DNA of 22,285 bases from a virus. Under the pieces are notes generated by a model that saw only the letters and a list, made by a program, of their open reading frames with translations, searched no databases and was not told the DNA's origin. Made by a program: the position numbers and the translations under genes. Each line of letters starts with the position of its first letter. Positions within the stretch are counted from its first letter, which is position 1. Shown piece by piece: positions 1,369 to 11,731 of the stretch. Location: positions 1-22,285 of IMG/VR virus record IMGVR_UViG_3300032323_003594. One strand, 5' to 3'.

Positions 1369-2219
1369 AAAACTTCGAAGAATTTTATAACGCCATTTCT
1401 GAAATGGCGCTTACTGATTTTAAAAAAATCGGAAAGTGGGATGACAAGAAAAGTAGACATGGATATGATAAAGCGTCTGTTGGGATTCTGAATTCCGACG
1501 CTGGTGTTCGTAAGATACAGGATGCATTCAACAAAGTCAAGCTTGCGGATTTCAATCTTTATTTTGTAAAGCAGCCGAATGCTTGGACTCATGAACAAAT
1601 CGGCAAAACGACGCCCGAATTTATAAAAAAGGCTTTTAATTTAGAAGTTGGAAAAGATATAAAAAATCCCGATAATGGAGAAATAAGTATCATTTTCACA
1701 AATAATGCAGCTGCTGAACGAACCCCCTTGACTCCTTGGACTATTGCGCATAGAATAGGACATGCCTTTTATTCAGAGAAACAAATACGCAGATCCTCAA
1801 GTATTGAAGATCATATTAAAAATATAAATAATATATTTAAATATATTCTCGATGATTGTTATCAATATACAAATAAAAAAAGTATATACTTAGGAAGTAA
1901 TGATTATATATTCAGAGATTTTATAGAAAATATAGGAACATTTAGAAGTGCTAGACTTAAAAAATTACCAAGAACATTTGAATTCTTTTATGAATGTTTT
2001 GCTCAGTGGTTGTTATCAAATGGAAATTTAAAATTTAATGATTTTCCCAAGGTTTTAAAAACTAGTAACCGTAAAGCATGGGGTAAAGATACTGGACGTT
2101 ATTATAAATTAGTGGATGAAGATCTAGCAGATAATTACAAGAGTGATTTGATTTATGCATTTGAAAACGCATTTAGAGATTTATTAGATTCAAATCTTGA
2201 TAATATTTCAATAATGTGA
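1365..2219 (+). CDS. Putative capsid-targeted internal protein with degenerate zincin-like HRIGH motif
   Basis: 284 residues. The N-terminus (MKNFEEFYNAISEMA) has the aromatic pattern shared with the genes at 15585-17708 and resembles T4 capsid-targeting sequences, with a possible prohead-protease cut after ISE. In the middle lies TPWTIAHRIGHAF (H129-R130-x-x-H133), which looks like an HExxH metallopeptidase helix whose catalytic Glu is Arg. About 75 residues later an aromatic segment with ECFAQ could supply an acidic ligand. The fold is therefore zincin-like at best, and catalysis is doubtful. The second half of the gene is markedly AT-rich. The start overlaps the upstream gene by 4 nt. Packaging into the head is inferred from the N-terminus only. 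Confidence 0.65.
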   Translation: MKNFEEFYNAISEMALTDFKKIGKWDDKKSRHGYDKASVGILNSDAGVRKIQDAFNKVKLADFNLYFVKQPNAWTHEQIGKTTPEFIKKAFNLEVGKDIKNPDNGEISIIFTNNAAAERTPLTPWTIAHRIGHAFYSEKQIRRSSSIEDHIKNINNIFKYILDDCYQYTNKKSIYLGSNDYIFRDFIENIGTFRSARLKKLPRTFEFFYECFAQWLLSNGNLKFNDFPKVLKTSNRKAWGKDTGRYYKLVDEDLADNYKSDLIYAFENAFRDLLDSNLDNISIM

Positions 2220-2240
2220 TAAAAAATATCAACACTCAGA

Positions 2241-2247
2241 CTAAATA
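2241..2247 (+). promoter_or_regulatory. CTAAATA heptamer before a small ORF
   Basis: CTAAATA lies 15 nt before the ATG of the 24-codon ORF at 2263. The spacing differs from the main series, so a promoter role is uncertain. Confidence 0.3.
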
Positions 2248-2262
2248 GATTTGCAAGAACAA

Positions 2263-2337
2263 ATGTTTTCAGAAATTACAAGAAAAGGTTATTTACAAGC
2301 CCGCCCGTTTAATTGCGGATGGAGTATTGTAGTCTAA
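2263..2337 (+). CDS. Possible small ORF, 24 aa
   Basis: Reads MFSEITRKGYLQARPF followed by NCGWSIVV and stop. It lies between the 1365 gene and a strong terminator, downstream of a CTAAATA element. An in-frame TTG at 2251 would add four residues. I see no family or ribosome binding site. It may be a real micro-protein or simply the leader of a short transcript ending at the terminator. Confidence 0.3.
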   Translation: MFSEITRKGYLQARPFNCGWSIVV

Positions 2338-2369
2338 TCATTTTTAAGTAAACAAAACAAAATGATTAG
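2334..2369 (+). repeat. 11-bp inverted repeat preceding the terminator
   Basis: CTAATCATTTT (2334-2344) pairs perfectly with AAAATGATTAG (2359-2369) around a 14-nt loop. It overlaps the stop codon of the small ORF and directly abuts the terminator stem. The two hairpins share G2369, so they may compete or stack. Confidence 0.6.
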
Positions 2370-2390
2370 GCTCCTACGGGAGCCTTTTTT
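2369..2390 (+). terminator. Rho-independent terminator
   Basis: GGCTCC (2369-2374), loop TACG, GGAGCC (2379-2384), then six T (2385-2390). This is a textbook intrinsic terminator that closes the 1036-2219 transcription unit before the RNA region. Confidence 0.9.
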
Positions 2391-2627
2391 ATTATACACA
2401 AGTGGCTTATGACGAGGGAGTGCCAGAAACGCCCAAGAGTACGGATTGACCGAGGTCGAAGTTGAAAAGCTTGGATAAAAGAAAAAAAATGTAGAGAGAT
2501 GTTGACAACCGGGGAAAGTCGTGGTACAGTGACTACATCAATCGCTGACGGCGCTGCCGACACCGAAAGATACCAACCCGAAAGCGAGGTTGTTCAAACA
2601 GTTCTTTTACATTTCAATTTCAAAAAC
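2391..2627 (+). other. Leader spacer of the tRNA region, no gene seen
   Basis: It contains the promoter at 2502-2530 and, after its start site, small hairpins. One is CGGC-GCT-GCCG near 2548-2558; another is CAACC/GGTTG around a CGAAAG-containing loop near 2576-2595. I see no convincing coding region; the open frame on the other strand crosses the promoter and looks spurious. It may be the 5' leader of the tRNA precursor. Confidence 0.5.
2502..2530 (+). promoter_or_regulatory. Sigma70-type promoter for the tRNA region
   Basis: TTGACA (2502-2507), a 17-nt spacer, and TACAGT (2525-2530). The -35 is a perfect match and the -10 has four of six consensus bases. It sits after the terminator and about 100 nt before the first tRNA sequence, so it is the best candidate for host-polymerase (early) transcription of the tRNA array. 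Confidence 0.6.
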
Positions 2628-2693
2628 GCTCTCATCGTCTAACGGTTAGGACATTTGGTAGGACAAAAAATCAATGATTATTTGTATGTTCGA

Positions 2694-2700
2694 TTAAATA
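2694..2700 (+). promoter_or_regulatory. TTAAATA late-promoter-like element
   Basis: TTAAATA is followed by exactly 5 nt and then ATG (2706) of the endonuclease gene. It selects this ATG rather than the upstream in-frame TTG at 2655, which lies inside the tRNA half. Confidence 0.6.
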
Positions 2701-2705
2701 ATAAT

Positions 2706-3482
2706 ATGAAGACATGCCCTAAGTGTAATCACCTTCACGGTAAGAATGGAACATTTTGCTCAAGAACTTGCGCTAATAGTAGAGTTTGGTCTCCACTCGA
2801 TAAAGAGAAAAGATCAAAAGCGGCGATTAGTTCAGAAAAAATGAAAAAGGCAGCCAAAGCACGGAAAGATAAAGTTCTACCTCTAGTAGAAAAAATCTGT
2901 GCATGCGGTGAAAAGTTTCAAATTAAGTATTATTCTAGTAAACAATACTGTTCGATAAAGTGTTCCAATCTGTCACCGAAAAAAGGTGGTTATAGAGAGG
3001 GTTCAGGTAGAAGCAAATCGGGATATTACAGAGGCATATATTGCGGCTCAACATATGAGTTATGTTGGGTGATCTATAACTTAGATCATAATATACCATT
3101 TTCGAGGTTCGAAGGTTGCATTAAAAGCGACAATATATGCTATTACCCAGATTTTCTTCTTGAAGATAAAATTACTATTGTCGAAATAAAAGGTTTCGAA
3201 GATAAGGAAAGAGTTAAACGTAAAAAAGATCTTGCTATAGAACGAGGCTACAATGTCAACATTCTATATAAGGAAGATTTAGAGATAATGTTCAAATATG
3301 TATATGAAAAATATAATACTAAAAACTTTCATACATTATATGATGATTATGCTCCAATATACGAATATACATGTAATAATTGTTTATCTCTGTTTCAAAG
3401 AGATTTCAAAATAAAAACAGAAATTAAATTTTGTTCAAGAAAATGCGCTGGTAAGTTTCGTGCTTATTCACGCATACAATAA
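2706..3482 (+). CDS. PD-(D/E)XK homing-type endonuclease with zinc fingers
   Basis: 258 residues. The N-terminus has two treble-clef-like Cys clusters (CPKC at 4-7 with C18/C22; CACG at 66-69 with C82/C86). The nuclease core follows: E118 in a STYEL motif, D149 in YYPDF, and E160-x-K162 in IVEIKG, the typical PD-(D/E)XK triad on a GIYCGSTYE-type fold. A third Cys cluster (YTCNNC and FCSRKC) ends the protein. The gene lies inside a split tRNA, as expected of a selfish nuclease that invades conserved tRNA sequence. Start chosen at ATG 2706, 5 nt after TTAAATA; the longer frame from TTG at 2655 is less likely. DNA target and activity are inferred. Confidence 0.85.
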   Translation: MKTCPKCNHLHGKNGTFCSRTCANSRVWSPLDKEKRSKAAISSEKMKKAAKARKDKVLPLVEKICACGEKFQIKYYSSKQYCSIKCSNLSPKKGGYREGSGRSKSGYYRGIYCGSTYELCWVIYNLDHNIPFSRFEGCIKSDNICYYPDFLLEDKITIVEIKGFEDKERVKRKKDLAIERGYNVNILYKEDLEIMFKYVYEKYNTKNFHTLYDDYAPIYEYTCNNCLSLFQRDFKIKTEIKFCSRKCAGKFRAYSRIQ

Positions 3483-3524
3483 ACCTACAAATCGGAGTTC
3501 GATTCTCCGTGGGAGTATTTTAAT

Positions 3525-3599
3525 AGCGGGGTAGAGCAGACTGGTTAGCTCGGGAGTTTCATAAGCTCTAGGTCGTGGGTTCAAATCCCACCCCCGCCA
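3525..3599 (+). tRNA. tRNA-fMet-type (CAT), initiator-like
   Basis: The acceptor is A-GCGGGG against CCCCGC-C, giving a mismatched 1-72 pair (A-C) as in bacterial initiators (C-A in E. coli). D-stem GAGC/GCTC has the A11-U24 pair typical of initiators, and the T-loop is TTCAAAT. The D-arm region and T-loop closely follow E. coli fMet. The anticodon arm is GGAGT-TTCATAA-GCTCT, so the three G-C pairs of true initiators are only partly kept. Discriminator A, no full CCA. Elongator Met or Ile2 (CAU) is the alternative. Confidence 0.85.
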
Positions 3600-3603
3600 C
3601 CTT

Positions 3604-3671
3604 TAATGTATCGTCTAATTAGGACTCCTCCGACGCTGGAGGGAATGTAGGTGGAAATCCTACTGCATTAA
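3604..3671 (+). tRNA. tRNA-shaped gene without a 7-nt anticodon loop
   Basis: Acceptor TAATGTA/TGCATTA pairs over 7 bp (one G-U). D-stem is GTC/GAC. T-stem GTAGG/CCTAC encloses an atypical loop TGGAAAT. The anticodon arm is CCTCC-GACGCT-GGAGG: a 6-nt loop, or 8 nt if the closing pair opens. No U33 can be placed, so no anticodon is assignable. It may be non-decoding, a frameshift-type tRNA, or decayed. Confidence 0.6.
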
Positions 3672-3679
3672 CTTTTTTA

Positions 3680-3717
3680 GGGTAGTTCGTATAGCGGCAA
3701 TTACAGAAGACTTGGAA
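3680..3717 (+). pseudogene. tRNA 5' half, Pro(TGG)-like, truncated at the anticodon loop
   Basis: GGGTAGT acceptor strand, D-arm and 5' anticodon stem GAAGA followed by CTTGGAA (anticodon TGG), after which homology to a tRNA ends. No 3' half is found after the following HNH gene; a complete tRNA-Tyr begins there instead. Its acceptor strand GGGTAGT can pair fully with the 3' acceptor strand of that tRNA-Tyr (ACTGCCC). An intact tRNA-Pro(TGG) exists at 4914. Confidence 0.65.
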
Positions 3718-3728
3718 TATACATTTGG

Positions 3729-3735
3729 TTAAATA
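3729..3735 (+). promoter_or_regulatory. TTAAATA late-promoter-like element
   Basis: TTAAATA then 5 nt then ATG (3741) of the HNH gene. It lies just past the tRNA 5' half, so the inserted unit carries its own element. Confidence 0.6.
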
Positions 3736-3740
3736 TCACA

Positions 3741-4169
3741 ATGAAGCAAAATCACACAGAGAAAATTTCTGATAATGATTTATTAGAAGCGTATTATAAT
3801 TTTCAACACATCGGGAAAGTTTCCGTTCATTTTAATCTTCCACATATTACGGTTTGGAGACGTTTAAAAAAACTTGGCGTTGAAATCAAAAGTGTCAAAA
3901 CGGGAATAGCGATTCCACTAGAGGAAATACTAAACGGGGAGCACCCTTATTACCAAACATTTAAACTCAATAAAAGGCTCTTAGCAGAAGGAATTTTCCG
4001 TAATGAATGTGCTATATGCGGGATCAAGGAGTGGAATTCTCGCTCTATCTCAATGCAACTGGATCACATTAACGGGTGTTCTCATGATCATAGGTTAGAA
4101 AATTTAAGAATGATTTGTCCAAATTGCCACTCCCAGACTGATACGTGGTGTGGTAAAAATAAAGGGTAG
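3741..4169 (+). CDS. HNH homing endonuclease, 142 aa
   Basis: The N-terminal third is helix-turn-helix-like (about residues 12-48, ITVWRRLKKLG) and probably recognises DNA. The C-terminal HNH domain has zinc ligands C90-x-x-C93 and C126-x-x-C129, the LDH motif with H109, N121 and H130. The HNH gene at 8794 has the same length and the same positions for all these residues, so the two are paralogues. It follows a tRNA 5' half directly, and its TAG stop lies within the first bases of tRNA-Tyr (4164), so insertion is flush with tRNA sequence on both sides. Likely a selfish element of tRNA genes. Confidence 0.85.
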   Translation: MKQNHTEKISDNDLLEAYYNFQHIGKVSVHFNLPHITVWRRLKKLGVEIKSVKTGIAIPLEEILNGEHPYYQTFKLNKRLLAEGIFRNECAICGIKEWNSRSISMQLDHINGCSHDHRLENLRMICPNCHSQTDTWCGKNKG

Positions 4170-4246
4170 GTATACCGTTAAGGAGACGGTCTGGTCTGTA
4201 AAACCAGTGCCTAAAAGCTCGCTGGGATCGTTACCCAGACTGCCCA
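4164..4246 (+). tRNA. tRNA-Tyr (GTA)
   Basis: Acceptor GGGTAGG against ACTGCCC (last pair G-A mismatched). The anticodon arm is CTGGT-CTGTAAA-ACCAG, giving GTA. It has a long class II variable arm as expected for bacterial Tyr, and T-stem CTGGG/CCCAG with the atypical loop ATCGTTA. The first six bases overlap the end of the HNH gene. No CCA encoded. Confidence 0.8.
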
Positions 4247-4253
4247 CTTTTCA

Positions 4254-4449
4254 TTCGGGAAAGACCCGAAAGACAATCAGGGTTTCGGTCGCCTGATGTA
4301 AAAGAAAAGACCGAACAATTTTTCGATTAGAGATGGAGTTAGCCATGAAAACGGGGATATACTAGTTCTCCTCTTCGTGAGTAATTTAAGGAGCCGCTAA
4401 CGGCTAACTACACAACCCCTCGGTCAAAGGTTATAATCGAAAGTTTTTT
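4254..4449 (+). ncRNA. Structured RNA with an H-type pseudoknot and nested long stems
   Basis: A hairpin TTCGGG/CCCGAA (4254-4270) is followed by a pseudoknot: stem 1 ATCAGG (4276) with CCTGAT (4292), stem 2 TTCGGTC (4284) with GACCGAA (4309). Then a 9-bp stem TTTCGATTA (4321) with TAATCGAAA (4434) encloses an 8-bp stem AGTTAGCC (4337) with GGCTAACT (4402). A run of six T follows (4444-4449), which may terminate. CTCGGTC near 4419 could compete for GACCGAA. No ORF or canonical tRNA lies inside. T4 encodes two stable RNAs of unknown function among its tRNAs; this could be an analogue. No tmRNA tag or group I core was recognised. Confidence 0.55.
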
Positions 4450-4453
4450 AATT

Positions 4454-4505
4454 GGGGTGCGCAACATAAGGGCAACGATTGGTTCGAACCCAATCCGCTC
4501 CACCA
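4454..4505 (+). ncRNA. Minimal tRNA-like element with T-arm and encoded CCA
   Basis: Acceptor-like GGGGTGC pairs with CCGCTCC over 6 of 7 positions. A perfect T-arm follows (ATTGG-TTCGAAC-CCAAT), then A and CCA. Only 17 nt separate acceptor and T-arm, too few for D- and anticodon arms. The CTCCACCA end resembles tmRNA 3' ends, but no tmRNA 5' domain is found. It could be a tRNA remnant or a tRNA mimic. Confidence 0.5.
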
Positions 4506-4514
4506 ATTTCAAAA

Positions 4515-4588
4515 GCAGCCGTAGCTCAGCTGGATAGAGCACTCGCCTTCTAAGCGAATGGTCACTGGTTCAAATCCAGTCGGTTGTA
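4515..4588 (+). tRNA. tRNA-Arg (TCT)
   Basis: Full cloverleaf: acceptor GCAGCCG/CGGTTGT, D-stem GCTC/GAGC, anticodon arm CTCGC-CTTCTAA-GCGAA (TCT), T-arm ACTGG-TTCAAAT-CCAGT, discriminator A. No CCA encoded. Confidence 0.93.
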
Positions 4589-4596
4589 CTTTTCAA

Positions 4597-4665
4597 TGCT
4601 CGCTGGAATCCTGCATATCGCGATCAGGATAGCCTGTGCTGTGAGAACCAGACGGTGAGCAACCA
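4597..4665 (+). ncRNA. tRNA-like element without canonical T-loop, ending ACCA
   Basis: TGCTCGC (4597) pairs over 7 bp with GTGAGCA (4655), followed by ACCA as a discriminator plus CCA would be. Inside are a hairpin ATCCTG/CAGGAT and inner pairing of TGG with CCA, but no TTC-type T-loop and no recognisable anticodon arm. It sits between tRNA-Arg and tRNA-Gly and has tRNA size. Confidence 0.45.
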
Positions 4666-4670
4666 ATTTC

Positions 4671-4741
4671 GCGCTATAAGTGTTACGGCAGCACATCAGA
4701 TTTCCAATCTGAGAGCGTGGGTTCGACCCCCACATGGCGCA
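4671..4741 (+). tRNA. tRNA-Gly (TCC)
   Basis: Acceptor GCGCTAT/ATGGCGC, anticodon arm TCAGA-TTTCCAA-TCTGA (TCC), T-arm GTGGG-TTCGACC-CCCAC, discriminator A. Confidence 0.92.
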
Positions 4742-4912
4742 CTTTTTACCACGCCACATACGGCAGTGCGATTCGTATGTGAGCGTTTGTATTGAGTTTG
4801 TACTAGCCATGCAAATAAGACATACATCGTATTCCGACGCACGATAGTAAAACTAGGTGGCTCTAGATAATATCTATCCTCTGTGAATCTCGGTAGTGTG
4901 GTGAAGTTTTTT
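4742..4912 (+). other. Spacer with hairpins, no gene seen
   Basis: It contains an 8-bp hairpin CACATACG (4755-4762) with CGTATGTG (4774-4781), a weaker ATCGT/ACGAT hairpin near 4826-4854, and AGATA-A-TATCT near 4865-4875, then a T-run before tRNA-Pro. No canonical tRNA or convincing ORF. It may belong to the family of structured spacers of this array. Confidence 0.4.
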
Positions 4913-4913
4913 T

Positions 4914-4987
4914 CTAGACGTATTTCAGCTTGGTAGAATACCTGATTTGGATTCAGGAGGTCGTCAGTTCAACTCTGACCGTCTAGA
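4914..4987 (+). tRNA. tRNA-Pro (TGG), CCA encoded
   Basis: Acceptor CTAGACG/CGTCTAG perfect, anticodon arm CCTGA-TTTGGAT-TCAGG (TGG), T-arm GTCAG-TTCAACT-CTGAC, discriminator A followed by C, C, A (the triplet ends at 4990). This one clearly encodes the CCA end, unlike its neighbours. Confidence 0.93.
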
Positions 4988-4993
4988 CCAATT

Positions 4994-5095
4994 AAACATG
5001 TAGTTCAGTGGTAGATCACATCTTCTCTATGATGGTAAGCTACGCCGCAAAAGAGAGAAGCTCTGAGGACGCGGGTTCAATCCCCGCCATGTTTA
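4994..5095 (+). tRNA. Aberrant tRNA: no 7-nt anticodon loop, 36-nt variable region
   Basis: Acceptor AAACATG/CATGTTT and T-arm GCGGG-TTCAATC-CCCGC are perfect. The D-stem GTTC/GATC has one mismatch. The anticodon arm is CATCT-TCTCTA-TGATG (6-nt loop, T-T closing) or a 4-bp stem with 8-nt loop. About 36 nt (5035-5070) then separate it from the T-stem, longer than usual class II arms. CTTCTCT in the loop can pair with AGAGAAG in this insert. Decoding identity is unassigned. Confidence 0.55.
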
Positions 5096-5106
5096 AGATT
5101 TTTTAT

Positions 5107-5195
5107 GGGTGTGTGGTCGAGTCTGGTTTATGGCGTCGCACTTGAAATGCGAAGGTGGTGAAAGCTGCCCGTGGGTTCGAATCCTACCGCACCCG
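5107..5195 (+). tRNA. tRNA-Ser (TGA)
   Basis: Class II tRNA: acceptor GGGTGTG/CGCACCC, anticodon arm TCGCA-CTTGAAA-TGCGA (TGA), long variable arm, T-arm GTGGG-TTCGAAT-CCTAC, discriminator G as in Ser. Confidence 0.93.
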
Positions 5196-5204
5196 CTTTT
5201 TAAT

Positions 5205-5275
5205 TGGCATATAGCGTAATGGTAGCGCAACTGACTTTGACTCAGTGTGTGGGGGTTCGACTCCCTCTATGCCTG
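5205..5275 (+). tRNA. tRNA-Gln (TTG)
   Basis: GGCATA pairs with TATGCC and position 1-72 is unpaired (T-T), in line with the weak first pair of Gln tRNAs. D-stem GCG-type, anticodon arm ACTGA-CTTTGAC-TCAGT (TTG), T-arm GGGGG-TTCGACT-CCCTC, discriminator G. Confidence 0.9.
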
Positions 5276-5281
5276 CTTTTT

Positions 5282-5445
5282 CAATGTGTTGGCCGTGATG
5301 ATGTAATTTACGAGGCCGAAAGAATAGGTGACTGCGTATGCGGTGATATGCTGTATCGAATTTACAGAGAAGCTTCCAATAGGACGACAAGCCCGGATAC
5401 TTGAACAAATTTCTGCTATTCAAACTTCATCGTTTAAACACATTG
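5282..5445 (+). ncRNA. Structured spacer RNA closed by a 9-bp stem
   Basis: CAATGTGTT (5282-5290) pairs perfectly with AACACATTG (5437-5445), enclosing about 145 nt. Inside are local hairpins: GGCC/GGCC near 5291-5316, CTGTA/TACAG near 5351-5367, and TTGAA/TTCAA near 5401-5423. It lies in a 333-bp gap between tRNA-Gln and tRNA-Lys that has no convincing ORF. The open frames here are short and cross the structures. Confidence 0.45.
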
Positions 5446-5453
5446 GTTTTGCT

Positions 5454-5489
5454 CGTAGGCGGTTCTATGGTAATTCATTGCTGCCTACG
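5454..5489 (+). ncRNA. Hairpin CGTAGGC/GCCTACG with 22-nt loop
   Basis: CGTAGGC (5454-5460) and GCCTACG (5483-5489) form a 7-bp stem. The rest of the gap to 5609 has only a short GATT/AATC hairpin near 5568-5580 and no gene that I can see. Confidence 0.4.
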
Positions 5490-5609
5490 GGTTCTAAAAT
5501 TTCAACTTTTTCTACCTGATAAGAGCCTATAAGGAACGGTGATATAATGATCGTAGTGCTTCGGCCAGATTGTTTGAATCGGGCGAATCCTGTATGGTAG
5601 AAAGTTTTT

Positions 5610-5683
5610 GGGGGTATAATTCAATTGGCTAGAATAACTGACTTTTAATCAGTAAGTTTCGGATTCGAGTTCCGATGCCCCTA
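5610..5683 (+). tRNA. tRNA-Lys (TTT)
   Basis: Acceptor GGGGGTA/TGCCCCT (two G-U), D-stem ATTC/GAAT, anticodon arm ACTGA-CTTTTAA-TCAGT (TTT), T-arm TCGGA-TTCGAGT-TCCGA, discriminator A. Confidence 0.93.
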
Positions 5684-5689
5684 CTGGAT

Positions 5690-5757
5690 GTCAGGTCGCA
5701 CCTGACTGATCTGGAATAAGCAGGAGAAGGTCCAGAAAGAATAATGAATAACCCTGC
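5690..5757 (+). ncRNA. Hairpin followed by an H-type pseudoknot
   Basis: GTCAGGT-CGC-ACCTGAC (5690-5706) is a 7-bp hairpin. Then TCTGGA (5710) pairs with TCCAGA (5731), and GCAGG inside its loop (5720) can pair with CCTGC (5753), which makes an H-type pseudoknot. It lies between tRNA-Lys and the next tRNA-shaped gene. Confidence 0.45.
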
Positions 5758-5774
5758 ACAAATTTAAACATGTT

Positions 5775-5847
5775 TGTTCTGAACGCTGGCGGCAAAGCGA
5801 CTCGCCCAACTAGGCAGGTATCGTAGGTTCGAGTCCTACCAGAACAT
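5775..5847 (+). tRNA. tRNA-shaped gene without a 7-nt anticodon loop
   Basis: Acceptor TGTTCTG/CAGAACA, D-stem CGCT/AGCG and T-arm GTAGG-TTCGAGT-CCTAC are perfect. The anticodon arm is TCGCC-CAACTA-GGCAG (6-nt loop, one C-A mismatch), or CTCGC/GCAGG with an 8-nt loop. No U33-anticodon-R37 arrangement fits, so no amino acid is assigned. The intact remainder argues against random decay. Confidence 0.65.
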
Positions 5848-5853
5848 TTTCTC

Positions 5854-5881
5854 TTGACTTCTGTAGAAAATAGAATAAAAT
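5854..5881 (+). promoter_or_regulatory. Possible sigma70-type promoter inside the tRNA array
   Basis: TTGACT (5854-5859), 16-nt spacer, TAAAAT (5876-5881), just upstream of tRNA-Asn at 5891. Each box differs from consensus by one base, and the spacer is 1 nt short. It could start a second tRNA transcript. Confidence 0.5.
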
Positions 5882-5890
5882 ATATGTAAA

Positions 5891-5962
5891 TCCCAGTAAC
5901 GCACTAGGTGTGCGGCCGCTCTGTTAAAGCGTGTGAGCTTTGTTCGAATCAAAGACTGGGAG
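5891..5962 (+). tRNA. tRNA-Asn (GTT)
   Basis: Acceptor TCCCAGT/ACTGGGA, D-stem CGCA/TGCG, anticodon arm CCGCT-CTGTTAA-AGCGT (GTT; first pair C-T mismatched), T-arm CTTTG-TTCGAAT-CAAAG, discriminator G. Confidence 0.9.
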
Positions 5963-5992
5963 CTTTTAAAGGAACACTAATATAATAATTGT

Positions 5993-6268
5993 ATGAGCGG
6001 AGGACATTTTGAATATCAACAATACCGCATCGACGATATTGCCAGAGAGATTGAAGTTCTAATCGAACAAAACAATAGCAATGAACTTGGTGAACATGGT
6101 TATCTTGTTAGTCATGGATATTCAGACTATACAATCGCTAAGTTCAAAGAAGCCTTGACAACTCTACGAAGAGGTGCTATCATGGCTCAACGAATTGATT
6201 GGCTTGTTTCTGGTGATGATGGTGAGAATAGTTTTCATAGACGATGGGAAGAAGAACTGCATGAATAA
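5993..6268 (+). CDS. Conserved phage hypothetical protein, 91 aa (MSGGHF family)
   Basis: The opening MSGGHFEYQQYRIDDIAREIE is, from memory, typical of a small protein widespread in large phages, function unknown. The sequence is hydrophilic and helical, with a Trp-rich acidic tail, no signal peptide and no membrane segment. It starts 30 nt after tRNA-Asn. A purine stretch AAAGGA lies about 20 nt upstream, too far for an ideal ribosome site, and TATAAT (5983-5988) sits 4 nt before the ATG, in the position of the TTAAATA elements of other genes. The 3' end overlaps the next gene by 8 nt. Confidence 0.8.
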   Translation: MSGGHFEYQQYRIDDIAREIEVLIEQNNSNELGEHGYLVSHGYSDYTIAKFKEALTTLRRGAIMAQRIDWLVSGDDGENSFHRRWEEELHE

Positions 6269-6485
6269 AGACAATTACATTTTACAAAAACGCTGGTATG
6301 ATAGCCAGTGGAAGACATGGACAGATTGGGAGGAAGTTGATGAATCATATGGAACAACTTTAGAAGAAATGAAGAAATCCTCCCAAGCTTGGATTGATGT
6401 CGGTGGTACTTATGAGTATCGTATTATAAAAAGAACTGATGTTCTTGAATGGGAACTGTCTTTTCTTAACAAGAAACAAAATTAA
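6261..6485 (+). CDS. Hypothetical phage protein, 74 aa
   Basis: Small Trp/Tyr-rich protein (LQKRWYDSQWKTWTDWEEVD near the start) ending in a basic tail. It resembles small phage proteins with a repeated W/Y-x-W pattern, but I cannot name a function. ATG at 6261 is chosen because a purine-rich Shine-Dalgarno (GGGAAGAAG) precedes it by 6 nt and because it overlaps the previous gene by 8 nt, which suggests translational coupling. This is one of the few genes here with a good ribosome site. A longer frame upstream lies inside the previous gene and is unlikely. Confidence 0.7.
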   Translation: MNKDNYILQKRWYDSQWKTWTDWEEVDESYGTTLEEMKKSSQAWIDVGGTYEYRIIKRTDVLEWELSFLNKKQN

Positions 6486-6486
6486 T

Positions 6487-6560
6487 GCTTGGAGAGGGTC
6501 TGTAAGAGCATGCATAATGGGGAGCGTCACCCCAAGACTCGACAAAAACTCCAAGCGCCA
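6487..6560 (+). ncRNA. tRNA-like element ending GCCA
   Basis: GCTTGGAG (6487-6494) pairs perfectly over 8 bp with CTCCAAGC (6549-6556), followed by G and CCA as a discriminator and tail. A GGGG-AGCGTCA-CCCC stem-loop with a 7-nt loop (6519-6533) lies inside, but there is no canonical T-loop and no clear anticodon arm. It begins 2 nt after the previous stop codon. Confidence 0.5.
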
Positions 6561-6681
6561 TTTCAGCGACTCGTATCGTGCAGATAGAACCGAAAGGTAA
6601 ATTACAAAGGTGCAACTAGTAGGTCAACGAAACGTCACAGAATTAGCAGTCTGTGAGACTTTGTAGCGAGAAACGCCAATT
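6561..6681 (+). other. Spacer with hairpins, no gene seen
   Basis: It holds a hairpin CACAGA (6636-6641)/TCTGTG (6650-6655) and an ACC-GAAA-GGT hairpin near 6590-6599. It ends in CGCCAATTT, like the CCA-ending elements. No ORF or canonical tRNA. Confidence 0.35.
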
Positions 6682-6689
6682 TATAAATA
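6682..6689 (+). promoter_or_regulatory. Perfect T4-type late promoter octamer TATAAATA
   Basis: It matches the T4 late consensus exactly and would start transcription near 6695, at the beginning of the structured spacer before tRNA-Thr. It is outside any coding region, which supports a real promoter. Confidence 0.55.
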
Positions 6690-6694
6690 CACGC

Positions 6695-6916
6695 TGTCTA
6701 GTCAGCAGCTAGTGTGTTCGCGATAGACACTTGATGGTAAGGCACCATTTAGTCCACATGAAGAGAAGCCAGCAATACTGGTAAAAATCGCAAGTCTAGC
6801 TCAAGGTGACTCTTGGGAAGGATGCCTCGGCTGCGTGAAGCTTGTTATGTAACTGTTGGCTGGAGCGAAAGCTTTGAAGGTTGACTATCTTCTTCGGAAG
6901 TGTTACAATCGCGAAA
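6695..6916 (+). ncRNA. Candidate structured RNA with long-range 8-bp pairing
   Basis: TTCGCGAT (6717-6724) pairs perfectly with ATCGCGAA (6908-6915). Between them are local hairpins: GTGT/ACAC, ATGGT/ACCAT near 6734-6748, CCAG/CTGG near 6771-6783, and CTTC-TTCG-GAAG near 6889-6900. It follows a TATAAATA element and precedes tRNA-Thr. No ORF of note. It is a plausible stable RNA or tRNA-precursor leader. Confidence 0.45.
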
Positions 6917-6922
6917 TTTTAC

Positions 6923-6994
6923 GGCTTAAAAGCATAGATAGCGATGCACCGGATTTGTAACCCGGAGAGGAGAGTGCATGTCTCTCTTGAGCCT
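6923..6994 (+). tRNA. tRNA-Thr (TGT) with unusual T-loop
   Basis: Acceptor GGCTTAA/TTGAGCC, D-stem GCAT/ATGC, anticodon arm CCGGA-TTTGTAA-CCCGG (TGT; one A-C mismatch), T-stem GAGAG/CTCTC with loop TGCATGT instead of TTCRANY. The D-loop also lacks the usual GG. The tertiary D-T contact may be weak. Confidence 0.78.
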
Positions 6995-7000
6995 CTTAAT

Positions 7001-7073
7001 GGATGCGTAGCTCAGCTGGGAGAGCACAGCTTTGATAAAGCTGCGGTCGTTGGTTCGAGTCCAACTGTGTCTA
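7001..7073 (+). tRNA. tRNA-Ile (GAT)
   Basis: Acceptor GGATGCG/TGTGTCT pairs with several G-U, D-stem GCTC/GAGC, anticodon arm CAGCT-TTGATAA-AGCTG (GAT), T-arm GTTGG-TTCGAGT-CCAAC, discriminator A. Confidence 0.9.
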
Positions 7074-7078
7074 CTTTT

Positions 7079-7516
7079 ATGAAAGGGTATGATCCAACAG
7101 ATACAAACCTCGACCATGCATTGACTTGGAATGAATGGAAAGGCTCAGGATTCTATGTTATAAAAGGTGAGAAAGCTGCGTGTTTTTCTCCTGATGGAAA
7201 AGCTTTATTTTTACCCTCTCAGGTTAATCAAAAAGATAAATACAGAAGTAATTCTCCTAACAACAAAGATAGGCATCCTTCGACTGAAACTTTTTGGGAA
7301 CAGTCAGCGAATAGAGCACAAGCTAAAGGCACTCCCTGGGGTGTAGTTGAAGACTTTGATAGTTTTGTTCGCGAAGCTGGTAGATTACCAGATCTCAGTA
7401 ACAGACCTAGATTCGTCATAAACGATCCATTAGAAATGCATTTCATGAATATTGCTGATAAACACGGTATTTTTGACAGCGTGTTAGATGGTGATTACGA
7501 AGATGATTATTATTGA
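7079..7516 (+). CDS. Hypothetical phage protein, 145 aa
   Basis: I do not recognise a family. It is soluble, rich in aromatic residues near the N-terminus (a DHALTWNEWKGSGFYV region) and very acidic at the C-terminus (DGDYEDDYY). The start is ATG 7079, only 5 nt after the last base of tRNA-Ile, so a longer start would run into the tRNA. There is no Shine-Dalgarno. After 3' processing of the tRNA the mRNA would begin almost at the start codon. Confidence 0.65.
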   Translation: MKGYDPTDTNLDHALTWNEWKGSGFYVIKGEKAACFSPDGKALFLPSQVNQKDKYRSNSPNNKDRHPSTETFWEQSANRAQAKGTPWGVVEDFDSFVREAGRLPDLSNRPRFVINDPLEMHFMNIADKHGIFDSVLDGDYEDDYY

Positions 7517-7525
7517 ATTTTATAA

Positions 7526-7538
7526 GGGGGTTTAGCTC
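7526..7538 (+). pseudogene. Possible tRNA 5' fragment (acceptor and D-stem start)
   Basis: GGGGGTTTAGCTC matches the usual start of a tRNA (7-nt acceptor strand, TA, GCTC), and tRNA similarity then stops. The epimerase gene begins 19 nt later. It may be the remnant of a tRNA broken by gene insertion, but it is short enough to be chance. Confidence 0.3.
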
Positions 7539-7556
7539 TACATCCCGTATTTTTAT

Positions 7557-8396
7557 ATGAAAACAGTATTAGTGACAGGATCGCATGGATTTGTCGGTAC
7601 TCAGTTAGTTACTCAATTATTGAACGGTGGACAATACCGTGTTATCGCAGTTGATGATTCAATTATCTTGGGTTATTCCGAGTATAACAACCTGATTATC
7701 TGCAATACATCTTATGATAATATTGCAAATTTTCAGAATGTTGATGCTGTTGTTCACTTAGCGAATTATAAATATAATGATAATTCCAATCGATTGGCGT
7801 TTGACATCGCAGCGCTTCCGAAGTTCCTAAACAAATTCCAACCTCATGTGAAATTTGTATACGCATCATCAGCTGCTGTGTATGATGAAAACTATGATGT
7901 GAATCCATCCACAATGTATGGATTGTCCAAATTGACACAGGAAAATATATTACTCGAAAGTGACTTTAATAATTTATCAATCTTGAGATTTTTTAATATA
8001 TACGGTAAATCATCAAACGGTGGTGTGATACAAAATTTCAAAAATGCTATCGTAAACAATGAGCCTATCTACATCAATGGTGATGGTAACTCCACGAGAG
8101 ATTATATACATGTTTCCGATATTGTTAATTCGATTATCAAAGAAATTGAATGTGAAAGCACTGGCAAGATCATCAAAAATATAGGCACTGGAATAGGCAC
8201 AAGTTTAAATAATCTGGCTTCTATGATGTTTGATGTGTTTGGAAAATCCACAACAGTGATACACAATCAGAGCGCAGACTGTGGTATACAGTTTTCAATA
8301 GCTCCAAATCATTTGTATAATTGCTTGGATCTGAAAACGGGATTGAGAGAATTCCAGATTGACAATTCCAGAAACGGTGATAAGATACTTGCATGA
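7557..8396 (+). CDS. NAD(P)-dependent sugar-nucleotide epimerase/dehydratase (extended SDR)
   Basis: 279 residues. The Rossmann motif G8-x-x-G11-F-x-G14 is at the N-terminus. The catalytic set is S104/S105 in YASSAAVY with Y121-x-x-x-K125 in MYGLSK, and the RFFNIYG and NGDGNSTRDYIHVSDI segments are typical of GalE- and RmlB-like enzymes. It acts on nucleoside-diphosphate sugars in the cytoplasm; the exact substrate cannot be told. Such enzymes in phages may serve surface-glycan, virion-sugar or DNA-base modification. It sits among tRNAs and overlaps the MazG-like gene by 4 nt. No clear ribosome site; an AAGGGGG run lies 25 nt upstream. Confidence 0.88.
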   Translation: MKTVLVTGSHGFVGTQLVTQLLNGGQYRVIAVDDSIILGYSEYNNLIICNTSYDNIANFQNVDAVVHLANYKYNDNSNRLAFDIAALPKFLNKFQPHVKFVYASSAAVYDENYDVNPSTMYGLSKLTQENILLESDFNNLSILRFFNIYGKSSNGGVIQNFKNAIVNNEPIYINGDGNSTRDYIHVSDIVNSIIKEIECESTGKIIKNIGTGIGTSLNNLASMMFDVFGKSTTVIHNQSADCGIQFSIAPNHLYNCLDLKTGLREFQIDNSRNGDKILA

Positions 8397-8719
8397 CATT
8401 GAACGAATACCAACAGATGGCAGTTGAAACCGCAGTTTATGGCGATGGGGATAAGATCATTTACCCAACACTTGGATTGTGTGGAGAGGCTGGGGAAGTT
8501 TCAGATAAGGTTAAAAAAATTATACGAGACAAAAATGGAATCTTTGATGAAGAATCAAAGCTGGCTATTGCCAAAGAGATCGGTGATGTAATTTGGTATT
8601 GCGCTGCTTTAGCTAGAGATTTAGACTCTTCTCTCGAAGAGATTTGCACAATCAATATCGAGAAACTAAAATCCCGACAACAGAGAGGTGTGATAGCTGG
8701 ATCAGGAGACGATAGATAA
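8393..8719 (+). CDS. MazG-like nucleotide pyrophosphohydrolase
   Basis: 108 residues with the all-alpha NTP pyrophosphatase signature: E32-x-x-E35 in LCGEAGEV and E62-x-x-D65 in KEIGDVIWY, which bind magnesium. It hydrolyses nucleoside triphosphates to monophosphate and pyrophosphate. In phages these enzymes are thought to clean nucleotide pools or alter (p)ppGpp-linked stress. It is a single-domain form, much shorter than E. coli MazG (263 aa). Its ATG overlaps the epimerase stop (ATGA), so the two are coupled. Confidence 0.88.
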   Translation: MTLNEYQQMAVETAVYGDGDKIIYPTLGLCGEAGEVSDKVKKIIRDKNGIFDEESKLAIAKEIGDVIWYCAALARDLDSSLEEICTINIEKLKSRQQRGVIAGSGDDR

Positions 8720-8725
8720 GTTCAT

Positions 8726-8771
8726 GCCCATGTGGTGAAATGGTAAACACAGCGGACTTTTCATAAAAGTT
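8726..8771 (+). pseudogene. tRNA 5' half, Leu-like, truncated at the anticodon arm
   Basis: GCCCATG acceptor strand, D-arm GTG-AAATGGTAAA-CAC and GCGGA followed by CTTTT match the 5' half of a class II Leu tRNA. The matching 3' stem (TCCGC) and acceptor strand (CATGGGC) are not found before or after the HNH gene. An alternative fold GACTT-TTCATAA-AAGTT would give a CAT anticodon. Position and context copy the other tRNA halves that precede nuclease genes. Confidence 0.6.
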
Positions 8772-8781
8772 TACCTGTTGA

Positions 8782-8788
8782 CTAAATA
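8782..8788 (+). promoter_or_regulatory. CTAAATA late-promoter-like element
   Basis: CTAAATA then 5 nt then ATG (8794) of the second HNH gene. Same arrangement as at 2694 and 3729. Confidence 0.55.
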
Positions 8789-8793
8789 TTTAA

Positions 8794-9222
8794 ATGCGTA
8801 AATATAGAAGATACACTAATGATGATTTAATAAATGCAGTTAAAATTAGTTACTCCATTTCACAAGTTCTAAAGATTTTAGATTTAAAAACTGCCGGTGG
8901 AAACTTTGAATCTATTAAGCTAAAAATAGCTAAACTTAATTTAGATACATCGCATTTCACTGGACAGCTTTGGAGTAAAGGTAAAACAATCAAAGATTGG
9001 GCCGAATACAAAAAACCAGCAGGTAGAAAATCTTACTTAATAAGTCAGAGGGGTCATAAATGTGAAGATTGCGGTCTTTCGGAATGGAAAGGGCATCCTA
9101 TAGTTTTAGAACTTCACCATGTTAATGGTGATAGATTGAATAATAATATGGATAATCTTCAATTATTATGTTGTAATTGTCATTCAATGACACATAATTG
9201 GAGAGGTAAAAAGGCTGTGTAG
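8794..9222 (+). CDS. HNH homing endonuclease, 142 aa (paralogue of the 3741 gene)
   Basis: The C-terminal HNH domain has C90-x-x-C93, H108/H109 in ELHHVNGD, N121, C126-x-x-C129 and H130, in the same positions as in the HNH protein at 3741. The N-terminal 60 residues are helical and probably form a DNA-binding module (SISQVLKILDL), but differ clearly from the paralogue, which suggests different target sites. It follows a tRNA 5' half, and its TAG stop lies at bases 8-10 of the next tRNA (9213). Probable selfish mobile gene of the tRNA array. Confidence 0.85.
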   Translation: MRKYRRYTNDDLINAVKISYSISQVLKILDLKTAGGNFESIKLKIAKLNLDTSHFTGQLWSKGKTIKDWAEYKKPAGRKSYLISQRGHKCEDCGLSEWKGHPIVLELHHVNGDRLNNNMDNLQLLCCNCHSMTHNWRGKKAV

Positions 9223-9287
9223 TCCAACTGGCAGGAGACAAGTGACTTAAAATCACTACAGTGTGGGTTCGAATCCCACCGCAGCTA
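9213..9287 (+). tRNA. tRNA-Leu-like (TAA) with short variable loop
   Basis: Acceptor GGCTGTG/CGCAGCT, D-stem GTC/GAC, anticodon arm AGTGA-CTTAAAA-TCACT (TAA), variable loop ACAGT, T-arm GTGGG-TTCGAAT-CCCAC, discriminator A. Bacterial Leu tRNAs are class II with a long variable arm; this one has 5 nt, so charging with Leu is not certain. The first ten bases overlap the HNH gene end. Confidence 0.78.
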
Positions 9288-9297
9288 CTTTAATTTT

Positions 9298-9417
9298 ATG
9301 AAGAAACAGCAACGAGACGTTAAGAGGGTAAAGCGTAAAGGCATTCACGCTAAGAGTAAGACATCAAAGCTAAAGAATTCCAAGAATTACAAGAAGCTAT
9401 ATAGAGGTCAAGGTTAA
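9298..9417 (+). CDS. Small very basic conserved phage protein, 39 aa
   Basis: Almost half of the 39 residues are Lys or Arg (MKKQQRDVKRVKRKGIHAK at the start, KNYKKLYRGQG at the end). This short family recurs, from memory, in large phages; its function is unknown, and nucleic-acid binding is the obvious guess. It starts 10 nt after tRNA-Leu with no ribosome site and shares one base with the next gene (TAATG). Confidence 0.75.
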   Translation: MKKQQRDVKRVKRKGIHAKSKTSKLKNSKNYKKLYRGQG

Positions 9418-9686
9418 TGAAAATTAAATGTACACAGCACATAGAAGCTGAAATTACATGGCATGATCGACTTGAAATAACAGAAAAAACACTGCGCAGG
9501 ATTCTCGATTGGCCTGATCATACCTATGTTTCTCAGGATGGTAGACTTATAACAGATGTTATATACTCTACATCCCATGCTTGGACTGATAAAGTAGAGC
9601 TTCGTAAGGAAGCTACGGATGATGACAAAGCATTACAAAGGATTGTTAATCTCATTCGTGCTAATAGATATAAATACAAAGATTGA
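9417..9686 (+). CDS. Hypothetical phage protein, 89 aa
   Basis: I do not recognise the family. It is soluble, with a mixed alpha/beta look and a basic helical C-terminus (IVNLIRANRYKYKD). The ATG overlaps the stop of the basic 39-aa protein by one base, and an AAGG/AGAGG purine stretch inside that gene can serve as ribosome site, so the two are likely co-translated. The end of the gene contains TATAAATA (9669-9676), ahead of tRNA-His. Confidence 0.7.
   Translation: MKIKCTQHIEAEITWHDRLEITEKTLRRILDWPDHTYVSQDGRLITDVIYSTSHAWTDKVELRKEATDDDKALQRIVNLIRANRYKYKD
9669..9676 (+). promoter_or_regulatory. T4-type late octamer TATAAATA inside the 9417 gene
   Basis: Perfect octamer, with a predicted start near 9682, 14 nt before tRNA-His. 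It overlaps codons for Arg-Tyr-Lys-Tyr, so it may be coincidental. Confidence 0.35.
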
Positions 9687-9695
9687 GTTGAGATG

Positions 9696-9767
9696 TGGAC
9701 TATGGTGTATCGGTTAGCATTGGAGATTGTGATTCTCCCGGAGAGGGTTCGAAACCCTCTAGTCCAA
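9696..9767 (+). tRNA. tRNA-His (GTG)
   Basis: Acceptor TGGACTA/TAGTCCA, D-stem GTGT/GCAT, anticodon arm GGAGA-TTGTGAT-TCTCC (GTG), T-arm GAGGG-TTCGAAA-CCCTC. A G lies at position -1 (9695), but position 73 is A rather than the usual C. Confidence 0.92.
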
Positions 9768-9773
9768 TTTTAT

Positions 9774-9863
9774 AGAGAGTTGCCAGAGTCTGGTTTATCG
9801 GGCTTCCCTGCTAAGGAAGAGTGGCCTTTAAAGTCACCGCGGGTTCAAATCCCGCACTCTCTG
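9774..9863 (+). tRNA. tRNA-Ser (GCT)
   Basis: Class II tRNA: acceptor AGAGAGT/ACTCTCT, anticodon arm CTTCC-CTGCTAA-GGAAG (GCT), long variable arm, T-arm GCGGG-TTCAAAT-CCCGC, discriminator G. Last tRNA of the array. Confidence 0.93.
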
Positions 9864-9866
9864 CTT

Positions 9867-11264
9867 TTATCTTGATATTTCTTCCCAATCTATTGAGCCA
9901 TGAACTAATTCACCAGAGCCACCAGCTGTACTTGCTGTCACAGCTATAGTTAATTCATATCTATCACCAGTGAAACTGTTTCGTTCTAATTGAAACTTGA
10001 ACAATGCTTCCTTTAGAATATCAATAGTTGTAGATGCTTGAGTATTTGAAGTGAAATATCCACTTGCTAGTATTCTACCACCGCTGAGACTAGTGCCATC
10101 TAATTTATATTCTACAGCAGAATCAGTGCCAGCACTCAACCATGTACCCCCTGATGTAGTTCCACCAGCAACAGCTTGCCATTTATAAACAGCTGTGCCC
10201 ACTCCCATTAGAGAGATAGCTGTTAAAATAACAATAGCATCAGGTCTGTCAGCTCTTAATCTGATTGAAGCAACAGGGTAAAATGTACCAGCAACAGGTA
10301 ACAATTTTGGAGCTAGTATCGATGTACCAACTGCTTGTTGTAACCCTCTCAGTTCATACCCACCTTCGGATATAACTGTTGAACAAACTTGCTTCATTTG
10401 ACTTGGACTGCCTGTAGCTCCTATGTTTTCTATTTCATATCTAAGAGGTAGTGATGCAGTAGTAATATAAGTTGTATCAATTATATTAGCATGGTGGAAA
10501 AAGTGACAAGGTACAAATTGACCATTTATTACAAATCCAGTTCTAACTGTACCTAATCCTAACCACTCAATATCCATGAAGAATATTTGTGCTTTTGTTT
10601 TGTCTAAGATTATACCAGAAGGTCCAGTTCCATCTAATTTATCAACATTCCAATCAGACTGTGCTGTTCTAGTTGATATCACTGATCCAGTTACTATGCT
10701 TCGCTCTACCATGTAGAGAGTGTTTCCATCTAACTCTAGATAGATACCATTATCATTTCCAAAGTATCCAACACGCTGTCTTAGATTTGTTTTAGGTGCA
10801 TTGAATGTGAATGTATTTAAAACTTGAAGACTCTTACCGGGTTGATAGGAGAATACCTTTGTTGTTTCTCTATAAACTCTTGAACCACTCAATCCATCAA
10901 CATTTAAATTTACTAAACCTTGATTTGGACTAAAGACAGCAGATGCAGATCCACTTGTTAATGTAGACCACAGACTGTTATCTTTATAACGATGAGAAGA
11001 GTCGAACAATGTGAGAGGTGAAGACATTCGAGTACGTCCAAATGCATCAGACGCCATATTTAAATTGCCAGTATAGTTATCCGCTGTAGTATCAATGTTC
11101 TTAACAAGAACGGCGTATTTGGGATACTGTAATGTTCGAACAGCTCCATAAGTTGGATCTGTTGTCGCTGAAGTTGGAGGGAAGCGAGTATCATTTACAA
11201 TCTCTACAAATTTACCACTCTCCGTATTAGCTGCGTTTGTCCAAACTCTAGTGTCTATAGGCAT
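9867..11264 (-). CDS. Conserved phage virion structural protein, 465 aa
   Basis: It has conserved blocks that I associate with a structural protein shared by T4-like phages of marine bacteria: FGRTRMSSPLTLFD (about residues 75-88), FSYQPGKSLQVLNTFTF (138-154), RQRVGYFGNDNGIYLELDG (162-180), then FFMDIEWLGLGTVRTGFVI and LPLRYEIEN further on. It is beta-rich and Ser/Thr/Gly-rich with no signal peptide, typical of a tail or baseplate-associated particle protein; the exact position in the virion is unknown. It is transcribed opposite to the tRNAs, and its stop lies 4 nt from tRNA-Ser. The ATG is 5 nt after a TTAAATA element, fitting late expression. Confidence 0.82.
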   Translation of the reverse strand: MPIDTRVWTNAANTESGKFVEIVNDTRFPPTSATTDPTYGAVRTLQYPKYAVLVKNIDTTADNYTGNLNMASDAFGRTRMSSPLTLFDSSHRYKDNSLWSTLTSGSASAVFSPNQGLVNLNVDGLSGSRVYRETTKVFSYQPGKSLQVLNTFTFNAPKTNLRQRVGYFGNDNGIYLELDGNTLYMVERSIVTGSVISTRTAQSDWNVDKLDGTGPSGIILDKTKAQIFFMDIEWLGLGTVRTGFVINGQFVPCHFFHHANIIDTTYITTASLPLRYEIENIGATGSPSQMKQVCSTVISEGGYELRGLQQAVGTSILAPKLLPVAGTFYPVASIRLRADRPDAIVILTAISLMGVGTAVYKWQAVAGGTTSGGTWLSAGTDSAVEYKLDGTSLSGGRILASGYFTSNTQASTTIDILKEALFKFQLERNSFTGDRYELTIAVTASTAGGSGELVHGSIDWEEISR

Positions 11265-11332: not shown

Positions 11333-11728
11333 ATGAAGACTATTCTGACAGCAGCTATGCTTCTACTATTCACCACCGGTTGCACGGTTCATTCCCAAAC
11401 CACAATGCAAACACGGAATGAAAAACAATATGTAATGATCCAATCTGGGGAGGCATCGTGGTATTCCACCAGATGCAACGGCGGCACCCGAACCGCGAGT
11501 GGCAAACCCCTCCAAAATCACGCTTCCACAGCAGCTCACAAAACCCTTCCACTTGGAACTCGTGTCAAAGTTACACACATCAAAAGTGGTAAAAGTGAAA
11601 TTGTTACGATAACAGATCGCGGACCTCACACGAAGGGGCGGGTTATAGATGTAACAGTTGGGGTTGCTGAACGATTAGGGTTTAAATCAAACGGTATCGC
11701 AAAAGTTAAGCTCGCAGTATTAAAATAA
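11333..11728 (+). CDS. RlpA-like double-psi beta-barrel lipoprotein
   Basis: 131 residues. A lipoprotein signal (MKTILTAAMLLLFTTGC, lipobox Cys17) precedes an RlpA domain: GEASWYS at 39-45, TASGKPL at 54-60, LPLGTRVKV at 72-80, and TDRGPH (D95) with RVIDVT (D106), the residues that form the active groove of RlpA transglycosylases. Bacterial RlpA cleaves peptidoglycan strands lacking stem peptides at the septum. Here it would be anchored in the outer membrane facing the periplasm. It may assist lysis or remodel the wall during infection. It could have been taken from a host. It is followed 3 nt later by thyX. Confidence 0.85.
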   Translation: MKTILTAAMLLLFTTGCTVHSQTTMQTRNEKQYVMIQSGEASWYSTRCNGGTRTASGKPLQNHASTAAHKTLPLGTRVKVTHIKSGKSEIVTITDRGPHTKGRVIDVTVGVAERLGFKSNGIAKVKLAVLK

Positions 11729-11731
11729 ATT

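Follow-up and report, generated by a model that had tools for sequence, protein, structure and literature searches.

The window analyzed here, a metagenomic viral fragment of 22,285 bases, carries a tRNA-Glu(UUC) gene split in its anticodon loop by a gene for a 258-residue nuclease. Very probably, the insert is a free-standing homing endonuclease gene from a family specialized on tRNA-Glu(UUC); together with the steps proposed below, this is the best explanation that we can offer for the sequences as a whole. The window would then represent the outcome of a failed replacement, with a dead tRNA gene and an intact nuclease gene. The pattern at the level of the nuclease family, invisible to the original prediction made from the window's letters, is more interesting than the split itself.

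The split tRNA-Glu gene and its borders

The locus comprises the following features.

2628 to 2659, + strand: 5' half of tRNA-Glu(UUC), nucleotides 1-32 (acceptor strand, D-arm, 5' anticodon stem TTTGG and T32), identical to L044, L045 and L047 up to TTTGGT
2660 to 3481, + strand: insert of 822 nt that replaces TTTC (loop nucleotides 33-36), judged against the uninterrupted L044-L048, with borders ambiguous by about 1-2 nt per side
2659 to 2673, + strand: left end of the mobile element, TAGGACAAAAAATCA, in which a piece of D-arm is followed by AAATCA, common to the left ends of relatives in an alignment
2694 to 2700, + strand: TTAAATA, similar to late promoters of the T4 type, immediately 5' of the ATG, identified from TAAATA counts in the family
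2706 to 3482, + strand: 258-residue nuclease of probable PD-(D/E)XK type, a putative homing endonuclease (ATG at 2706, TAA at 3480-3482), identified from relatives, motifs and an AlphaFold model
3482 to 3517, + strand: 3' half of tRNA-Glu (nucleotides 37-38, 3' anticodon stem CCTAC, variable loop, T-arm, acceptor and A73), as in L046 and L048

That a tRNA-Glu gene is split here, as originally predicted, is borne out by the presence of both halves and the 258-codon ORF and by five IMG/VR loci in which the tRNA is uninterrupted, which argue against chance. These five viral contigs (L044, L045, L046, L047 and L048) came from a search with 26 nt of the 5' half as the pattern, and ARAGORN calls a tRNA-Glu(ttc) in each. 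The split gene of the window receives no call from ARAGORN or Rfam, though other tRNAs of the window are called. Because the upstream flanking DNA also matches the window, the intact copies are alleles at one site, and L044-L048 represent its gene-free form. They are of two kinds, TTTGG-TTTTCAA-CCAAC (L044, L045 and L047) and TTAGG-TTTTCAA-CCTAC (L046 and L048); each of the pairs L044/L045 and L046/L048 seems to come from a single phage or from two almost identical ones. Comparison with relatives lacking the insert, which had been proposed as the way to define its borders, places the left border at 2659, where the window diverges after ...GGACATTTGGT, and the right border at 3482, where it rejoins the intact alleles at AACCTAC.

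Several details of the original prediction call for amendment. The acceptor strands do pair over 7 bp, but the helix includes two G-U pairs, likewise found in the intact alleles. The ORF does lie in the anticodon loop, but deletion of the anticodon had been missed. The ends of the insert do pair (TTTGGTAGG with CCTACAAA), but what pairs is in part the old anticodon stem and in part TAGG from the left end of the element. Judged against the intact alleles, the anticodon UUC is in neither half, and the would-be anticodon stem TTTGG/CCTAC has lost one pair, leaving a U-U mismatch at 29:41; the mismatch at 27:43 is shared with the intact alleles. The 5' half corresponds to the TTTGG allele (as in L047) and the 3' half to the CCTAC allele (as in L046). 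For the 29:41 change, allelic recombination and drift of a gene already dead may each be the source, and a single base does not discriminate between them.

Two fates had been envisaged for the gene, death or a joining of its halves by some mechanism. In the latter case, a ligase or some unknown process would have to unite the co-transcribed halves as RNA into a functional tRNA-Glu, and the acceptor, D- and T-arms kept in the two halves, as well as the ability of the insert ends to pair (8 bp with one bulge), would be in keeping with this. Nevertheless, we find such joining scarcely credible. Because nucleotide 33 and anticodon nucleotides 34-36 are missing on both sides and the stem pair at 29:41 is lost, no joining of the halves would restore tRNA-Glu(UUC). 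Moreover, no splicing is needed, because relatives of the nuclease almost always adjoin a whole tRNA-Glu (49 of 55 distinct family members, all intact and with anticodon UUC). The same losses support the first fate, and the tRNA-Glu gene at this locus appears to be dead. A second tRNA-Glu may lie outside the fragment.

The nuclease and its lack of an intron

The reading frame of the nuclease is complete, and the last A of its TAA stop is nucleotide 37 of the tRNA. Its conserved core, YELCWVIY...PDF...ExKG, is flanked on both sides by CxxC...FCSxxC pairs, with three such zinc-finger motifs in the protein; YE (within YELCWVIY), PDF and ExKG are invariant across 24 sequences. With frame and catalytic motifs intact, the element may still be active. 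Of 54 family members, 37 have a TAAATA within the 45 nt that precede the start codon, versus a mean of 6.2 (maximum 13) in shuffles.

The motifs and weak fold matches point to membership of the PD-(D/E)XK superfamily. The AlphaFold model of the 258-residue protein has a pLDDT of 86.9, and the weak matches that Foldseek finds for it are to Bax1 (the best, E 0.0067), I-Bth0305I (E 0.13, probability 0.96) and PvuRts1I. For this protein, Pfam gives nothing above its cut-off, and a sequence search of the PDB gives only a sub-threshold match to Bax1. The matches in PHROGs are to families labeled as HNH endonucleases, a label that probably stems from the zinc-finger parts.

The original prediction had held that the insert leaves no room for a group I intron, and the Rfam searches uphold this: no group I intron is matched in the window at gathering cut-offs, nor in 2200-10000 at E values up to 5, and the same library detects group I introns in the tRNA-Leu of L049 and L044 as a positive control. 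Since the tRNA-Leu anticodon of those two contigs does harbor a group I intron, the insert could be imagined as a degenerate intron of this kind with its homing endonuclease. Against this stand the Rfam result, a non-coding part of only ~45 nt and the position of the relatives' nucleases, which adjoin whole tRNAs rather than lying within introns, and we consider the idea barely tenable. From these comparisons, the nuclease gene seems to sit in neither a self-splicing intron nor an intein, with a tRNA gene as its host.

The introns of those two contigs (Rfam RF00028), in the anticodon of viral tRNA-Leu(UAA) genes at L049:962-1154 (75 bits) and L044:9470-9665 (60 bits), are noteworthy in themselves because a 2014 review placed all phage group I introns then known in protein genes (PMC3984707).

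A nuclease family associated with tRNA-Glu

Counting the window, two scans brought together a family of 55 distinct members that share the core motif; 42 relatives came from one scan. The nearest full-length protein is ~58% identical to the nuclease of the window. Among the family members, no close relative with exactly this insert was found, and a scan of genome contigs gave no bacterial homologues; in named phages, tblastn gave only distant matches to the nuclease, in Prevotella Lak phages.

The 49 members that adjoin an intact tRNA-Glu comprise 46 identified by a permissive tRNA-Glu finder and ARAGORN, two recognized by eye (L074 and L113) and L100, counted because the tRNA-Glu overlaps the end of its ORF. 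The finder made one call in 110 shuffled flanks. The tRNA-Glu lies downstream on the same strand in 31 of the 46 script-found cases, downstream on the opposite strand in 5 and upstream in 10. The ORFs of many family members terminate within the tRNA, commonly at the UAG of nucleotides 8-10. No tRNA-Glu is nearby in L096, L124, L135 and L142. In L142, a distant member, the nuclease follows a tRNA-Ser(UGA) 5' half and is followed by a whole tRNA-Ser(UGA); here half and whole have switched together to serine.

Displaced half tRNAs are found on the other side of the nuclease. Upstream of it at many loci is a tRNA-Glu 5' half, typically TCGTCTAnnGGTTAGGAC, which ends near nucleotides 25-27 and ~30-48 nt before the ORF. 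When upstream sequences were compared with equal-size libraries for 20 isotypes at the 29 loci whose tRNA-Glu follows the nuclease on its own strand, Glu was the best isotype in 17, versus ~1.5 expected, the members being related and the counts thus non-independent. Against dinucleotide shuffles, the tRNA-Glu half likewise reached p <= 0.02 at 17 of the 29 loci, again among related family members. It was not ranked first in the other 12, and for this reason, and because 10 loci have the intact tRNA-Glu upstream, the layout is not uniform. Opposite-strand members have a 3' half upstream instead, as a mirrored insertion predicts.

Could the proximity to tRNA-Glu be incidental, with the nuclease drifting among the intergenic spacers of tRNA arrays? 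The four members with no tRNA-Glu nearby would be expected in that case. However, adjacency to the same isotype in 49 of 55 members, in arrays with about 20 isotypes, and the first-ranked tRNA-Glu remnants at 17 of 29 loci make drift extremely unlikely, and specialization of the family on tRNA-Glu(UUC) is the reading that we retain.

The leftover and intact tRNAs at a locus are not copies of one another. Where the leftover has the canonical D-arm TCGTCTA...GGA (or its TCATCTA form), the neighboring whole tRNA has a different D-arm at 12 of 12 loci; the two are therefore different alleles rather than a simple duplication. The difference suggests that the replacement tRNA may resist cleavage. 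We kept only this comparison within loci, because a population test of linked versus unlinked genes was unusable, its control containing copies of the linked genes.

Two further candidates were set aside. L013 had been considered as a second matched split, but its 5' and 3' halves around the nuclease do not pair, and a separate intact tRNA-Glu lies alongside. L014 had been considered as a half-tRNA case at tRNA-Thr, but its upstream copy is a whole tRNA missed by detection.

Parallel layouts at other tRNAs

The window contains related arrangements at two other tRNAs.

3680 to 3712, + strand: displaced tRNA-Tyr 5' half that stops immediately 5' of the anticodon, matching the intact tRNA-Tyr of L046 up to ...GACT
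3741 to 4169, + strand: HNH nuclease with its stop in the acceptor of the next tRNA-Tyr (Pfam HNH just below cut-off; PHROGs HNH)
4164 to 4246, + strand: complete tRNA-Tyr(GUA) with a different 5' half and anticodon loop CTGTAAA, read from the sequence, with no ARAGORN call
8726 to 8759, + strand: displaced tRNA-Leu 5' half with GACTT at its end, matching L049 and L044
8794 to 9222, + strand: HNH nuclease identified by sequence searches, its TAG stop being nucleotides 8-10 of the next tRNA
9213 to 9287, + strand: complete tRNA with anticodon TAA (Leu), called by ARAGORN and Rfam

An uninterrupted tRNA-Tyr is seen in L046. Relatives of the HNH gene at 3741-4169 (L050-L055) lie 2-11 nt upstream of a tRNA-Tyr, with no clear Tyr half there. 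The tRNA-Leu half ends at the nucleotide where the group I intron begins in L044 and L049. Elsewhere, a GIY-YIG gene separates a tRNA-Met half from a whole tRNA-Met in L044, with the uninterrupted form found in L046, and L041 has a Pro/HNH version of the layout. A nuclease gene between a displaced native part and its replacement is found, then, in many relatives and at the Tyr and Leu loci of the window; the tRNA-Glu locus of the window departs from this, with replacement 5' half and anticodon both absent.

Other features of the arrays were observed along the way. Near its contig end, L047 has a tRNA-Gly 5' half followed by a GIY-YIG ORF, and the contig stops before any replacement. After its tRNA-Tyr, L046 has a whole tRNA (anticodon TCT), an HNH ORF on the opposite strand and a tRNA 3' half, a mirrored layout. 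A 102-nt tRNA-like gene, with ~30 extra nt between the anticodon arm and the T-arm, is conserved in relatives (window 4994-5095, L046:1379-1480 on the minus strand and L044:6423-6524); it scores 41-43 bits as an Rfam tRNA, has no ARAGORN call and could have either an unusual variable arm or a short insertion. ARAGORN also leaves uncalled some other sequences, tRNA-like or truncated, at 4440-4504, 5785-5848 and 3606-3672 of the window, one of them with a T-arm and acceptor and no normal D- or anticodon arm. Inter-tRNA spacers with strong inverted repeats, at 4247-4316 and 4593-4665 of the window, are conserved in L046 and, for the second, L047, and are possibly structured RNAs. Finally, L044 has a tmRNA gene inside its tRNA array (11667-12043; ARAGORN and Rfam, 124 bits).

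A proposed mechanism

We propose that the enzyme cuts the tRNA-Glu gene of a co-infecting phage, in or near the anticodon arm, and that the break would be repaired from the nuclease-bearing genome with the tRNA halves serving as homology arms. If the donor has a whole tRNA-Glu beside its nuclease, the recipient would normally keep a working tRNA together with a leftover half.

The insert start in the window, TAGGACAAAAAATCA, matches the left ends of relatives, TTAGGACAnnnAAATCA. The recipient tRNA 5' of the insert already has its own TTAGGACATTTGG, and the D-arm piece is thus present twice. This duplication suggests that the insert came from a donor with a tRNA-derived left end and was joined at a non-equivalent position through a few shared bases. 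On the right, the stop of the ORF runs straight into nucleotide 37, with no replacement 5' half. The latter may have been lost by imprecise insertion, with the junction at a short shared GGT, or by later deletion, and it is because this half is absent that the tRNA-Glu gene of the window would be dead.

Since the record is metagenomic and the two halves resemble different alleles at a single position, the split might instead be an artifact of assembly, in which strains with and without the element were joined. This is very unlikely, however, given that the left junction has the family's own left end after a tRNA stretch that other family left ends lack, that the ORF is intact and that L116 provides an independent case, a split tRNA-Glu whose acceptor strands pair and whose orientation is the opposite one.

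A broader reading, which we favor by a small margin over doubt, is that homing nucleases of several kinds (PD-(D/E)XK, HNH and GIY-YIG) shape phage tRNA arrays by cutting the anticodon arm and bringing an uncut tRNA of the same isotype, with identity kept, sequence swapped and the D-arm difference as a mark of resistance. If so, one mechanism could account for phage tRNA arrays being varied, rich in half tRNAs and interspersed with nuclease genes. Conserved tRNA genes would be safe and widely shared landing sites, with the new tRNA as the price of entry. Homing would also be linked to tRNA-targeting defenses, as swapped tRNA sequences could alter sensitivity to host nucleases.

Comparison with known systems

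We found no description of the layout of half tRNA, nuclease and replacement tRNA in the open-licence literature. Several known systems share parts of it. First, free-standing homing endonucleases are established in T4-like phages, among them SegB and other Seg and Mob genes (PMC13096335, PMC2988022). SegB has its place in the tRNA region of T-even phages, makes its cuts inside tRNA genes and is often encountered near tRNAs (PMC13096335). Like the putative homing gene here, these are intron-less nuclease genes inherited by break repair, SegB within a tRNA array; unlike it, SegB is a GIY-YIG enzyme, and the passages on SegB considered here make no mention of a half tRNA displaced next to a replacement (PMC13096335). 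Second, MobE in Aeh1 nrdA and mobA in T4 gene 60 are likewise homing endonucleases that split a functional gene, but the split proteins reassemble and work (PMC2988022), which a tRNA without an anticodon cannot do. Third, the group I introns of anticodon loops (cyanobacterial tRNA-Leu and tRNA-fMet; L044 and L049) have the same kind of target, but they self-splice from RNA, whereas the insert here has no intron core. Fourth, motifs and a weak fold match to I-Bth0305I suggest that the nuclease here shares a superfamily with I-Bth0305I and I-Ssp6803I, the latter of which targets a tRNA-fMet gene; their flanking zinc-finger motifs differ from those here, and the PDB holds no clear sequence match.

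The closest parallel is provided by the mobile ORFs of fungal mitochondria, in atp6 of Allomyces and in atp6, atp9, cox2 and nad3 of Glomus, which insert into genes and bring a replacement C-terminus, with the native one displaced (PMC3630166). In both settings, an endonuclease ORF lies in a gene together with a replacement for the displaced part, and the native leftover is on the other side. The fungal ORFs concern a protein C-terminus in mitochondria and encode LAGLIDADG or GIY-YIG enzymes, whereas here the target is a tRNA gene, the genomes are those of phages and the enzyme is probably of PD-(D/E)XK type. By this analogy, the layout can be understood as the principle of the fungal mobile ORFs applied to the tRNA genes of phages.
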